Positions 35,044-39,119 of a stretch of 64,000 nt of DNA are shown here, piece by piece. The translations under genes were made by a program, and so were the position numbers. The DNA comes from Pararhodobacter zhoushanensis (lineage in GTDB: Bacteria > Pseudomonadota > Alphaproteobacteria > Rhodobacterales > Rhodobacteraceae): contig NZ_REEZ01000001.1 of the NCBI RefSeq assembly GCF_003990445.1, forward strand, positions 186,001 through 250,000, read 5' to 3'. The notes under the pieces are model-generated. The model made no database searches. It was not told the DNA's origin and saw only the letters and a list, made by a program, of their open reading frames with translations. Numbering within the stretch: the first letter of the stretch is position 1; every line of letters begins with the position of its first letter.

Positions 35044-35086
35044 GTTCCGCTGGGAACGTCATGCTCGCGCCCGCACATGCTAGTTG
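35044..35086 (+). promoter_or_regulatory. Promoter of FecR cassette with GTTCC-N4-GGAAC palindrome (site A)
   Basis: GTTCCGCTGGGAAC at 35044-35057 is a 14-base inverted repeat (five-base arms, four-base spacer). TAGTTG at 35081-35086 is a -10-like box centred 33 bases downstream of the palindrome centre. The FecR start codon is 70 bases beyond the palindrome. The same layout occurs at 38310 and 38791, which is why I treat it as a regulator site. Confidence 0.55.
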
Positions 35087-35126
35087 AACGCCACATTTCT
35101 TAACATTTGTTGAATCGAGGCGCCTC

Positions 35127-35735
35127 ATGACTGTTTTTTCCCGCCGTATGCTTCTCTTGACTGCGGCCAGCCTGCCGCTGGCCAGCCCTGCCTTTACCAG
35201 CACCCCGTCGCGACTGGGCGAGGTGCTGGAAACCACCGGTCCCGGCGATCTGATCCGCGATGGTCTAAGGCTGCCCTTGGCGCCGGGCCTCGCGTTGCAC
35301 GAAGGTGACACAGCGGCGACGGGTGACAGCGGGCTGGCGTTGCTGTTGCTCGACGCGCGCACGCGGATTGCACTGGGCACCAATAGCCACATCGAACTGG
35401 CCAGTTTCCTGTCCGAAATCGGCGGCACTATACGGGTCGGCGGCGCCATGGTTTTTGACCGGCCTGACGATTTGCCAGCGCTGGACGCACGCTTTGTCAC
35501 CGCGTTCGGTGAGATCGGCGTGCGCGGCACGCGGTTTTTCGTCGGTTGGTCGCGCGGCGATTATGCGGTTTTCGTCCAGCGCGGACAGGTCAGCGTGTCG
35601 AATGCCGGCGTGACCCGCCTGCTGAATGCGGGCGAAGGATGCACGATGTCCGCCGGCGTCCCGTCCGAGGTCACTCCTTGGGGCGAGGCGCGCATCGACG
35701 AGGCCTTCGCCAGCCTCGGCCTGTCGCGCGACTGA
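35127..35735 (+). CDS. FecR domain-containing exported protein
   Basis: 202 residues with a signal peptide (FSRRMLLLTAASLPLASPAF, twin-arginine-like RR but without a full Tat motif). The rest is a FecR domain (PF04773): GDTAATGDSGLALLLLDARTRIALGTN, then VTAFGEIGVRGTRFFVG and VFVQRGQVSV. FecR proteins sense or scaffold in the periplasm and in some systems signal to ECF sigma factors. Here there is no sigma factor; the next genes encode a cyclic-nucleotide-dependent regulator and a CHASE2 cyclase. It is the first gene of that probable three-gene unit. Confidence 0.85.
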   Translation: MTVFSRRMLLLTAASLPLASPAFTSTPSRLGEVLETTGPGDLIRDGLRLPLAPGLALHEGDTAATGDSGLALLLLDARTRIALGTNSHIELASFLSEIGGTIRVGGAMVFDRPDDLPALDARFVTAFGEIGVRGTRFFVGWSRGDYAVFVQRGQVSVSNAGVTRLLNAGEGCTMSAGVPSEVTPWGEARIDEAFASLGLSRD

Positions 35736-35799
35736 CACCGCCTGAGGGCTTTACGCCGGATGCCGCCTGCGGCACCATCGCCGCACCAAAGGGGGCGGC

Positions 35800-36489
35800 A
35801 TGCGCAATCGCGGGTTCTGGAAATCCTTCGCGCTCTTTTCGGGGTTGTCCCCGGAGGCGCTTGATGCCGTCGCCGCAACAGCGCGCGCGCGCCATTGGGG
35901 CCCTGGGGAGCTGCTTTTTCAACGCCATGACCCCGGCGATTGGCTGGTCGCGCTCGAAAGCGGGCGAGTGCGGATCTCGCTGGTGACGCCGGGTGGGCGC
36001 GAGTTGGTGTTGCGACACTCTGAACCGGGCGAAATTCTGGGGGAGATGGCGCTGTTCGACAACGCCCCACGCTCGGCCGATGCCACGGCCGTGGGCGCTG
36101 TCAGCGGCTTTGTTCTGGACCGCAGTGCGTTTCACACGCTGGCTCAGGCCGATACAGGGTTTTACCGCTCGGCGCTGGCGCATCTGTCCAGTATGCTGCG
36201 CAGCACCACGTTGCAGCTTGAATCCATTGCCCTTTATCAGCTTCGTGGCCGGGTCGCGCGCTTCTTGTTGATCACGCTCGAACAGCTGCACGGGGCCGAT
36301 ATCCCTGATCAGGCCGGGCTTTCGCTGGGCCTGTCACAAGGAGAGCTGGCCGCCGTACTGGGCGCGACCCGGCCCAAGGTGAACCGCGTCTTGCAGGATT
36401 TCCGCGACGAAGGGCTGATCATCGATGACGGACGCAGCTGGCGGTGCCATGTTACCGGGCTGCGGGCCGAGGCCGGATCGGATGGCTGA
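35800..36489 (+). CDS. Crp/Fnr family cyclic-nucleotide-responsive regulator
   Basis: 229 residues. The N-terminal cNMP-binding barrel includes GEMALFDNAPRSADATAV, a complete phosphate-binding cassette (G-E-x-A-L ... P-R-S-A), so it should bind cAMP or cGMP. The C-terminal winged helix is LSQGELAAVLGATRPKVNRVL. The recognition helix TRPKVNRVL keeps the two Arg positions of CRP but has Pro where CRP has Glu181, so the DNA site should differ from TGTGA-N6-TCACA. No Fnr-type cysteine cluster is visible. It lies in one unit with FecR upstream and an adenylate cyclase downstream (eight-base overlap). The GTTCC-N4-GGAAC palindromes nearby are candidate targets. Confidence 0.9.
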   Translation: MRNRGFWKSFALFSGLSPEALDAVAATARARHWGPGELLFQRHDPGDWLVALESGRVRISLVTPGGRELVLRHSEPGEILGEMALFDNAPRSADATAVGAVSGFVLDRSAFHTLAQADTGFYRSALAHLSSMLRSTTLQLESIALYQLRGRVARFLLITLEQLHGADIPDQAGLSLGLSQGELAAVLGATRPKVNRVLQDFRDEGLIIDDGRSWRCHVTGLRAEAGSDG

Positions 36490-38302
36490 GACCCCACGCC
36501 GTCCGCTGGCCGGAAGGGTCGCGCTGGGGCTTTGCCTGGCGCTTGCGGCGCTGATCGCGTGGCAACCCGCACCGCTGGTTCGATGGCAAGAGCGGGCATT
36601 GGATGCCCTGCTTGTACTGGTCCCTGCGCCGCCAACCACAGGCGTCACCGTCATCGATATCCCGCGTGCTGATGACACCGGCGCGCCGTGGTCGCGCGCG
36701 TCCTCAGCCCGGCTGGCAGCGCGGTTGGCCGAGGCGTCACCGCGCGTCGTCGGTTGGGACGTGGTTTTTGCAGACGATTGCGCGCCAAACGCGGCCAATC
36801 TGGCGCTGACCGCCACGCTCAGCCGCAGCGCAACCGTCCTTGGCTTCCTGCTCGCCAACCAGTCCGAGGCCCTGCCCGGCCCCGCCCCCGCGCTGGCCCT
36901 TGGCGGCGATGCCGGCACGCGGCTGTGGAGCGCGCCGGGGGCGGAAGCCCCCTGTGAAACCTTTTTGTCCGACCCGGTGACCCTTGCCAGCCTGTCTTTG
37001 CCCGGCGACACCGAAGCCCGCGTGCGCCGTGTTCCCGCCGCCGTCACCGTTGCGACCCTTGCCTGGCCGTCGCTCCCGGTAGAGCTGGCCCGGCGCGTTC
37101 GCGCGCCCTCAGCCGTGGTTCTCGCAGCCGATGCCAGTGGCGCGCTGAGCCTGCATCTTGGCCCGCGTGCCGTGCCTCTGGACAGGGACGGCACGCTGCG
37201 TTTGCGTCCCCGCCCCGCCGCGATGCGCGCAGCGCGCACGCTCGACGCGGCCGCCCTGCTCAGCGGTCCAGTTCCCGACCTTGCCGACCGCGTGGTCATC
37301 GTCGGTTCCTCCGTGCCGCAACGCGGCGGGTTGCGCCCCACTGCCATGGGCCCCCTTTATCCGTCCGTCCAGATCGCCGCCGATCTGACCGCCGACCTGA
37401 TCGCCGACCAGCTCCCCTGGCGCCCCGCCAACGCGCCCTGGGTCGAGGCAGCCGCCCTCGCCCTTGCCGGCCTCATCCTTGCCGGCATGCTGCCGCGCCT
37501 TGCCCCGCTGGCCGGGGTTGCCCTTGCGCTCACCCTTGCGCTGGTCTGGACCGGGACCGCGACGACGACTTATCTTGCCACCAATCGTCTTTATGATCCG
37601 TTAATGCCCGCCCTAGGCGTGCTTTTTTCCGCCACGGCCGCGATCCTGCTGCAAGCTGCGCTCACTGCCCGGGCCGAGCGCGCCCTGCGCGAACGTATGG
37701 GCCAGCTGCTGCCTGCGGTCGTCGTTGCGCGCTTGGCCAATGACCCCGGCCTGCTGCGTCTGCGCGGTGAACGGCGCCTTGTGACCGCGCTTTTCACCGA
37801 TCTTGAAGGCTTTACCGCCGCCACCGTCACGATGGAGCCTGAAGCCCTGATCGACGCCCTCGACCGCTACTTCACCGTAGTCTGCGCGGTGATTTTGCGC
37901 CATGGCGGGATGATCGACAAAATCGTCGGCGATGCGGTCCACGCGCTTTTCAACGCGCCGCTGGACCAGCCCGGCCATGTAGACGCAGCCCTTCAGGCCG
38001 CCGCCGAGATCGTCGCCCAGACCGAGGCCTTGCGCGCCAGCCTCGGTCTGGGCCGAACCCGCATCGGTATCGAGACCGGCGCGGCGATTCTGGGCGATGT
38101 CGGCTCGGGCGCGCGCATCGACTACACCGCGCATGGTGCCTGCGTTAACCTTGCTGCGCGGCTGGAGGCGGCGGGCAAGGCGCTGGGGCCCGCCGTGATC
38201 ATCGGCCCCGCCGCGGCGGCGCAAAGCACGCAGCCTTTGCGCGCCCTTGGCCTGCATGAGCTGCGCGGTTTCGGGCCGGTTGAGGTTTTTACCCTGTCCT
38301 GA
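36482..38302 (+). CDS. CHASE2 domain adenylate/guanylate cyclase
   Basis: 606 residues from the ATG at 36482, overlapping the Crp gene by eight bases. Order: one membrane helix (about 10-35), an extracytoplasmic CHASE2 sensor (about 40-310; VTVIDIPRADD, PRVVGWDVVFADD), three further membrane helices (about 315-400), then a class III cyclase domain (about 430-560). The cyclase has VTALFTDLEGFTAATV and GGMIDKIVGDAVHALF with the metal Asp residues and substrate Lys, and IDYTAHGACVNLAARLE with the specificity Asp and the N-x3-R transition-state pair. It therefore looks active and adenylate-specific. It probably makes the cAMP read by the neighbouring regulator in response to an external or envelope signal. 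Confidence 0.92.
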   Translation: MAETPRRPLAGRVALGLCLALAALIAWQPAPLVRWQERALDALLVLVPAPPTTGVTVIDIPRADDTGAPWSRASSARLAARLAEASPRVVGWDVVFADDCAPNAANLALTATLSRSATVLGFLLANQSEALPGPAPALALGGDAGTRLWSAPGAEAPCETFLSDPVTLASLSLPGDTEARVRRVPAAVTVATLAWPSLPVELARRVRAPSAVVLAADASGALSLHLGPRAVPLDRDGTLRLRPRPAAMRAARTLDAAALLSGPVPDLADRVVIVGSSVPQRGGLRPTAMGPLYPSVQIAADLTADLIADQLPWRPANAPWVEAAALALAGLILAGMLPRLAPLAGVALALTLALVWTGTATTTYLATNRLYDPLMPALGVLFSATAAILLQAALTARAERALRERMGQLLPAVVVARLANDPGLLRLRGERRLVTALFTDLEGFTAATVTMEPEALIDALDRYFTVVCAVILRHGGMIDKIVGDAVHALFNAPLDQPGHVDAALQAAAEIVAQTEALRASLGLGRTRIGIETGAAILGDVGSGARIDYTAHGACVNLAARLEAAGKALGPAVIIGPAAAAQSTQPLRALGLHELRGFGPVEVFTLS

Positions 38303-38309
38303 CTGTAGT

Positions 38310-38350
38310 GTTCCCCCGGGAACTGAGCGCACAGCCTGTGCCCGTTAGGT
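38310..38350 (+). promoter_or_regulatory. Promoter of SH3 gene with GTTCC-N4-GGAAC palindrome (site B)
   Basis: GTTCCCCCGGGAAC at 38310-38323 followed by a -10-like TTAGGT at 38345-38350, 31 bases from centre to centre. The SH3 gene starts 75 bases after the palindrome. The 18 bases TGTTCCCCCGGGAACTGA are repeated exactly at site C (38790-38807). The geometry matches class II activation by a Crp-family protein, with the site over the -35 region. Confidence 0.6.
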
Positions 38351-38397
38351 TGGTCCCATCGGCACCAACGCCGCAACCCGCACAAGGAACCAAGCCC

Positions 38398-38724
38398 ATG
38401 ATCCGCCACGCCTTCATCGCCGCCGCCCTCACCCTGATCCCTGCCGCGGCCTCTGCCTCTGACGCCTGGACCACCGCCGGCGTCAACTTTCGCGACGGGC
38501 CGAGCAGCTATTACGCTGTCATCGCCACCCTGCCGCGATGCGCGGTGATCCAGACCTATGAATGGCAGAGCGGCTGGGTCCGGGCCGAATGGCAGGGGCA
38601 GTACGGCTGGCTCTCGGGCAGCTATATCGCTGAAAGCAATGCGCATTGCAGCTATCAGGCGCCCGCCTATCAAGCCCCGGCCTATCACGCCCCGGCGCAG
38701 GGCACCGCGTACCGCCGCTATTGA
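38398..38724 (+). CDS. Exported SH3 (SH3b) domain protein
   Basis: 108 residues from the ATG at 38398. A signal peptide ends at about ASASD. The mature part is a bacterial SH3 domain: TTAGVNFRDGPSSYYAVIAT, CAVIQTYEWQSGWVRAEW and GQYGWLSGSYIAES. The tail repeats AYQAPAYHAPA-like units (Ala-Pro-Tyr-rich). SH3b domains bind peptidoglycan or other envelope ligands. It is followed by a strong intrinsic terminator and preceded by palindromic site B, so it is a single-gene unit probably controlled with the cyclase cassette. Confidence 0.85.
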   Translation: MIRHAFIAAALTLIPAAASASDAWTTAGVNFRDGPSSYYAVIATLPRCAVIQTYEWQSGWVRAEWQGQYGWLSGSYIAESNAHCSYQAPAYQAPAYHAPAQGTAYRRY

Positions 38725-38746
38725 CCCCCAAGACCTTTGCAACGGC

Positions 38747-38770
38747 GGGCCCCTTCGGGGGCCCTTTTTT
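38747..38770 (+). terminator. Intrinsic terminator after SH3 gene
   Basis: GGGCCCC (38747-38753), tetraloop TTCG, GGGGCCC (38758-38764), then six T (38765-38770). It is a textbook GC hairpin with a UUCG-type loop and a U-tract, 22 bases after the SH3 stop codon. Confidence 0.93.
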
Positions 38771-38790
38771 GCATCCGGCCGCTGCTCGCT

Positions 38791-38832
38791 GTTCCCCCGG
38801 GAACTGAGGCGCAGCCAGCCCGGCGCTAAGGT
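38791..38832 (+). promoter_or_regulatory. Promoter of small exported protein with GTTCC-N4-GGAAC palindrome (site C)
   Basis: GTTCCCCCGGGAAC at 38791-38804 and a -10-like TAAGGT at 38827-38832, 32 bases centre to centre; the start codon lies 66 bases after the palindrome. Identical to site B over 18 bases although the downstream genes are unrelated in sequence, which argues for regulatory conservation. Confidence 0.6.
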
Positions 38833-38870: not shown

Positions 38871-39119
38871 ATGTATCGCACCGCCCTTGCCGCCCTGATC
38901 CTTACCGCCCAACTCGCTGGCAGCGCCGCTCTTGCCCGCGACACCGGTCTTGTCCCCGCCGCGCCCATCACAGCCCGGCATGTCACCGCCCCGTCGGGCG
39001 CGGGACTGGCCCTGCCGGTCATTTCGCTGACGCAGCCCGCAAGCGACGCCCCTCGCACGGCGCCCCTTCTGGACGCCGCCTATCGCCCGATCGAGCCGCA
39101 AACCCGCGTCTTTTCCTGA
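38871..39119 (+). CDS. Small exported protein of unknown function
   Basis: 82 residues. A signal peptide (MYRTALAALILTAQLAGSAA) is followed by cleavage near ALARD. The mature part is about 59 residues, Pro- and Ala-rich, without a recognisable domain (APLLDAAYRPIEPQTRVFS at the end). The reading frame is supported by the signal peptide, host-like codon use and the conserved promoter (site C). It may be an envelope protein made under the same signal as the SH3 protein. No family recognised. Confidence 0.7.
   Translation: MYRTALAALILTAQLAGSAALARDTGLVPAAPITARHVTAPSGAGLALPVISLTQPASDAPRTAPLLDAAYRPIEPQTRVFS

Follow-up and report, generated by a model that had tools for sequence, protein, structure and literature searches.

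A putative Clr-type cyclic-nucleotide circuit at a CHASE2 cyclase locus of Pararhodobacter zhoushanensis

RESULTS

Organization of the Locus

The window analyzed in this work is the whole stretch of 64,000 nucleotides from the genome of Pararhodobacter zhoushanensis. It contains a gene for a FecR-domain protein (fecR), a regulator gene (clr) and a CHASE2 cyclase gene (cya), which are followed on the same strand by genes for an SH3-domain protein and for a protein of 82 amino acids. The genes and the putative regulatory features are as follows:

35044..35057, no strand assigned: putative Clr-type site 1, GTTCCGCTGGGAAC, 5' of fecR-clr-cya
35081..35086, plus strand: putative -10 hexamer TAGTTG of the fecR promoter, at +31
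35127..35735, plus strand: FecR-domain protein with signal-like N-terminus (PF04773, E 3.2e-6)
35800..36489, plus strand: Clr-type cyclic-nucleotide receptor transcription factor (PF00027, PF13545; 7PZA/7PZB, E 4.2e-56; residues; tree)
36425..38302, plus strand: CHASE2 class III nucleotidyl cyclase (PF05226, E 9.7e-29; PF00211, E 1.6e-12)
38310..38323, no strand assigned: putative Clr-type site 2, GTTCCCCCGGGAAC, 5' of the SH3 gene
38346..38351, plus strand: putative -10 hexamer TAGGTT of the SH3 promoter, at +30
38398..38724, plus strand: SH3-domain protein with signal-like N-terminus (PF08239, E 7.9e-8)
38791..38804, no strand assigned: putative Clr-type site 3, GTTCCCCCGGGAAC, 5' of the small exported-protein gene
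38827..38832, plus strand: putative -10 hexamer TAAGGT of the small exported-protein promoter, at +30
38871..39119, plus strand: 82-aa protein with signal-like N-terminus (no Pfam family)

The cyclase named in an earlier description of this DNA (here the sequence-only reading) is borne out by Pfam, which finds both the CHASE2 and the cyclase domain. Its longest reading frame opens at 36425, and translation may instead begin at the in-frame ATG of 36482. The residues D, K, D, N, and R, which we take to be the catalytic ones, are all present; the base-contact columns hold K and T, and the substrate cannot be read from these two. The 82-aa protein matched no Pfam family.

The sequence-only reading had also reported three palindromes with five-base arms and a four-base spacer and no further copy in the window. 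A pattern search for GTTCC-N4-GGAAC returned exactly these three matches (35044-35057, 38310-38323, and 38791-38804), and 100 dinucleotide shuffles of the window gave a mean of 0.03 and a largest count of 1. The 14-mers of sites 2 and 3 have the same sequence. The gaps from palindrome to start codon are 69 bases for FecR, 74 for SH3, and 66 for the small exported protein, in agreement with the 66-75 bases first given for these three genes. At the three window sites the bases from +29 to +36, counted from the palindrome center, read GCTAGTTG, TTAGGTTG, and CTAAGGTG; the -10-like hexamers pointed out earlier are thus present, but they start at +30 or +31, and the TTAGGT chosen at the time sits at +29. 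A terminator at site 2, just past the cyclase stop, was considered and rejected, as no T run lies downstream.

Identity of the Regulator

The best match of the window regulator in a PDB sequence search was Clr of Sinorhizobium meliloti (7PZA and 7PZB, E 4e-56; next match 8e-24), with 94 of 204 compared residues identical. Clr (SMc02175) is a cluster G CRP characterized by ChIP-seq, EMSA, and crystallography (PMC10127613; PMC5498481). All six of the pocket residues given in the structure paper (G85, E86, R95, S96, T140, and T141 of Clr) are identical in the window regulator, so that the cyclic-nucleotide pocket is intact as had been proposed, and so are five of the six DNA-contact residues given there (L152, Q184, R195, K197, and N199), the sixth, S194, being replaced by Thr. 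Clr G47, for which the same paper proposes a contact to the omega subunit of RNA polymerase (PMC10127613), is His in the window protein. Conservation was further followed in 17 orthologue rows picked by overall score and 41-97% identical to the window regulator. The five contact residues (L148, Q180, R191, K193, and N195 in window numbering) are invariant in these rows, to which the helix count was confined because the pattern of the wider scan itself contained the helix; the sixth position is Ser, Thr, or once Gly, and the second pocket Thr is Asn in five of the 17 rows, the most distant kinds (L054-L058). By its sequence the window regulator is a homologue of S. meliloti Clr, i.e., a Clr-type (cluster G CRP) protein. 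Activation by cAMP as well as cGMP is a trait of this regulator type.

FNR proteins are marked by N-terminal Fe-S cysteines, and the sole Cys of the window regulator is at position 216. The RE(T/M)VGR helix of E. coli-type CRP is likewise missing, and none of the three sites is TGTGA-N6-TCACA. The sequence-only reading had proposed a putative new Crp-type regulon and pointed to a recognition helix (TRPKVNR) without the CRP Glu. This helix and a site that differs from TGTGA-N6-TCACA could suggest that the regulator forms a specificity class of its own in the Crp/Fnr family, outside the characterized regulons. We consider this very improbable. Clr also lacks the Glu181 of CRP (PMC10127613), and the RPKVNR helix, the site, and the clr / CHASE2 cyclase / fecR gene set of the window are those of S. 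meliloti Clr. In a tree the 89 Clr rows, including the window and Sinorhizobium proteins, fall on one side of a branch and 12 other Crp paralogues on the opposite side (SH-aLRT 96), which speaks in the same direction with moderate weight, since the tree was quickly made, its outgroup branches are long, and its ingroup had been selected for likeness to the window regulator.

The Palindrome as a Probable Clr Site

The Clr papers give the core of the site as GTNNCNNNNGNNAC, out of HGTYHCNNNNGRWACA, the form first given having been TGTTN8AACA (PMC10127613; PMC5498481). GTTCC-N4-GGAAC is a strict case of this core, which all three window sites fit. Sites 2 and 3 match HGTYHCNNNNGRWACW in full, whereas site 1 fails at the outer bases (G on both sides against H...W). 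Judged from sequence, the three palindromes are very probably binding sites of the neighboring Clr-type regulator.

Conservation across Loci

The regulator has strong matches in five other members of the genus and in 11 of 393 further sampled genomes of the family. The motif had been expected upstream of related cassettes, and this is what we see: 13 of these 16 orthologous loci carry the strict site and three do not. All five genus orthologues of the SH3 gene are preceded by a strict site, and site 3 has a counterpart at the same place in G018. The proposal that the regulator's own operon carries a site fared less uniformly, as site 1 has its counterpart at the same place in G018, G010, and G017, but none precedes fecR in G009 or G006 (best match 6/10). 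In the loci L044 and L045 the fecR-clr promoter is without a palindrome, though one is present at the SH3 promoter and at each of two positions beyond it downstream.

A scan of named genomes was used to widen the comparison, and the best 80 of its 178 loci, nearly all of them Rhodobacterales or Rhizobiales by title, were taken; because only these were used, the extent of the family is not shown by the scan. Together with the window and the 16 earlier loci, and less eight duplicates, they make up 89 non-redundant loci. Two records of Rhodobacter capsulatus (L080 and L088) are among these best 80 of 178. Across the 89 loci a cyclase-like match is present in 74 (counted as cyclase-like reading frames anywhere in the locus, CHASE2 having been checked by Pfam in the window protein alone) and a FecR match in 63, while homologues of the 82-aa protein occur in two, the window and L043. 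When all inverted repeats with five-base arms and spacers of 0-10 were compared over about 510 bp around the clr start, GTTCC-N4-GGAAC ranked first of 11,264 designs (26 of the 89 loci), and shifted registers of the same site came second and third. Across the full 7-kb module of the 89 loci the lead went to CTGTT-N8-AACAG (53), the outer register of this site, followed by GTTCC-N4-GGAAC (42) and then by GC-rich arms (35).

The two orders, assigned from the record titles (L089, which has no assignment, went into the Rhodobacterales-side count, yet groups with Devosia in the tree), differ in the form of the site. Rhodobacterales-side modules carry the strict GTTCC form more often (33 of 45; 20 shuffles averaged 0.35) than those of Rhizobiales (9 of 44; shuffled mean 0.2), and TGTTN8AACA is found in 33 of the 44 Rhizobiales modules (shuffled mean 1.15). 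One or the other form occurs in 71 of the 89 modules, and 18 have neither. Over 82 collected sites the 14-mer is preceded by C (77) and T (75) and followed by A (59) and G (72), of which the C and G are free of the search pattern and the T and A were fixed only for the TGTTN8AACA sites. It should be noted that the absence of strict sites from 24 loci of weaker Crp matches (L019-L042) is no control, since chance gives about none there.

Linkage to clr beyond the Neighborhood

Regulator, cyclase, FecR, and SH3 genes co-occur in the same six of 19 genomes of the genus (six of the 13 with a completeness of 90% or more), with one further weak SH3 match in G011. The modules of G010 and G017 are split between two contigs, with fecR-clr on one and cyclase-SH3 on the other, and both parts keep their sites. 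In L173 and L174 (two genus members) the cyclase-SH3 half is separated from fecR-clr and retains paired sites, and an Rrf2-like gene is close by in L174, as it is in the window. An unlinked cupredoxin gene (PF00127) has a site 73-92 bases before its start in all six clr-bearing genomes of the genus, perfect in five and with 9/10 bases in G006; the gene is present in two of 13 clr-less genomes, neither of which has the site (best match 7/10). In the window's own genome this site is at L165:5621-5634 (G000:C53:45620-45633), with a second Crp-type gene at a distance of about 4 kb. The palindrome thus accompanies the regulator across genomes, as had been suggested, and the circuit was described too strongly as "self-contained", given the site at the unlinked cupredoxin gene and the split module of two genus members.

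These comparisons bear on whether the palindromes bind a different regulator, the Clr-type gene merely adjoining them. The genome does hold three further, weaker Crp-type matches, one of them the gene close to the cupredoxin site, but the site tracks the presence of clr at the cupredoxin gene (with only two clr-less genomes having that gene), stays with cyclase and SH3 in the split modules, and agrees with the site determined by experiment for the closest characterized relative. We regard a different regulator as very unlikely, and less likely than a new specificity class.

Genome-Wide Counts of the Bare Pattern

The window's genome contains 12 copies of the bare 14-mer pattern and 12 of a reversed control, and seven of its nine copies outside the window fall inside called reading frames. 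The six clr-bearing genomes of the genus have 12, 12, 10, 7, 13, and 18 copies against 12, 18, 9, 13, 6, and 6 of the reversed control; ten clr-less genomes have 1, 8, 4, 2, 2, 7, 1, 4, 3, and 8, with 6, 12, 9, 9, 6, 11, 3, 0, 10, and 1 of the control. The lower number of copies without clr is suggestive, though genome size, completeness, and kinship differ. A list of regulon members based on the bare pattern was given up, as counts were not consistently above the reversed control: genome-wide the pattern is at about chance level, and clustering and conservation carry the signal. Among the 72 strict copies of the six clr-bearing genomes, the neighborhoods inspected were those of the window and module copies, the nine own-genome copies, and 20 in chosen stretches, several of the latter falling inside called reading frames. 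One own-genome palindrome outside called frames (L010:1501-1514; G000:C54:52829-52842) lies between two transporter-like reading frames, where a short unlisted frame may cover it. At L170:3983 and L171:4485, in two genus members, a site precedes by about 45-64 bases the called start of an exported-looking protein of no Pfam family, a possible target.

Promoter Geometry

The start of the best TATAAT match falls at +30 from the center in a set of 24 exported-gene sites, with TA in 13 of 24 and none of 500 shuffles as good; 14 of these sites were picked by eye out of the chosen stretches and oriented by hand before scoring, and related genomes were counted singly, so that the 24 are not independent. 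The fit at 31 fecR sites peaks at +30 too. A -10 element starting there puts the palindrome center at -41.5, and the spacing at fecR and at the exported genes fits the class II activation proposed earlier. Sites before clr, 27 in number, are spaced differently, with a -35-like TTGC at +12. GGAAC is also the -35 element of EcfG-type promoters in Alphaproteobacteria. The least probable reading, that the sites are such sigma factor elements and not activator sites, has in its favor this likeness of one arm and a CGTT in two of the 82 sites (that of the SH3 promoter in the window and its copy in G018), yet that CGTT is at +27, none of the 82 sites has one at the EcfG spacing (+24 or +25), and both arms are conserved as a palindrome.

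DISCUSSION

The locus most likely encodes a Clr-type cyclic-nucleotide circuit in which a cyclase signal acts through a Clr-type dimer, at sites centered at -41.5, to activate a set of targets. What was observed here is Clr homology, residue identity, conservation of the site, co-occurrence of the genes, and spacing to a -10-like hexamer, and from these we infer the binding, ligand, activation, feedback, signal, and role of FecR as follows. The membrane CHASE2 cyclase, perhaps partnered by the FecR protein, would respond to a signal from the envelope and make cAMP or cGMP. The Clr-type dimer would bind one of these and dock through its RPKVNR helix on GTTCC-N4-GGAAC centered at -41.5. It could then activate the fecR-clr-cya operon, which would amount to positive feedback, together with the genes for the SH3 protein, the small exported protein, and, elsewhere in the genome, the cupredoxin. 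The circuit drawn in the sequence-only reading was thus a real observation with a mechanism that is largely supported, as a Rhodobacterales branch of the known Clr kind.

Clr has been studied in a plant symbiont, and the regulator, its site, and its cyclase and FecR partners can now be placed together in Rhodobacterales. No description of Clr or of the GTTCC-N4-GGAAC site in this order was found in the titles and abstract openings among the matches listed, whose coverage mostly excludes subscription journals. The available text of the structure paper names homologues in Sinorhizobium, individual Rhizobium species, and Bradyrhizobium, and the word stem "rhodobact" is absent from its main text (PMC10127613). 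We tentatively put forward, at somewhat less than even chances, that Clr, CHASE2 cyclase, and FecR form an old envelope-signaling circuit of Rhodobacterales and Rhizobiales that predates symbiosis, with FecR as a periplasmic partner of the cyclase and the role in legume infection control in Sinorhizobium as a later use. Rhodobacterales such as Rhodobacter capsulatus would be hosts in which the signal of the CHASE2 cyclase and the function of FecR can be asked about apart from the plant.

The closest known system is that of S. meliloti, which the locus resembles in the regulator with its pocket and DNA-contact residues, in the core site, and in a CHASE2 cyclase and a FecR gene at the locus. According to the Clr papers, the S. 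meliloti locus comprises clr (SMc02175), cyaD1 (SMc02176), and a FecR-domain gene (SMc02177), with the Clr target SMc02178 nearby (PMC10127613; PMC5498481). A record of S. fredii (L146) has the order clr, cyclase, fecR (reverse), site, and an SMc02178-like gene, whose product (L146:9384-9947) has a Sel1-repeat match just below the Pfam cut-off (29.1 against 30.7 bits). The likeness extends to targets rich in small and signal-peptide proteins and to sites from -42 upstream: in S. meliloti eight of 20 confirmed Clr targets are small proteins and 10 have signal peptides, and activated sites are mostly at -42 to -76 (PMC10127613; PMC5498481). The locus differs in its putative SH3 and cupredoxin targets and in gene order, fecR being upstream of clr and co-directional here, whereas in rhizobial and most other Rhodobacterales loci with fecR it is downstream and convergent. 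CgrA of Rhodospirillum centenum is likewise a cluster G CRP-like protein encoded with cyclase genes (gcyB and gcyC), but it binds TGTGA-N6-TCACA (PMC4681086), where the window has GTTCC-N4-GGAAC instead. E. coli CRP/CAP shares the fold, and class II spacing is known for it, whereas its RE(T/M)VGR helix and TGTGA site are absent from the window.
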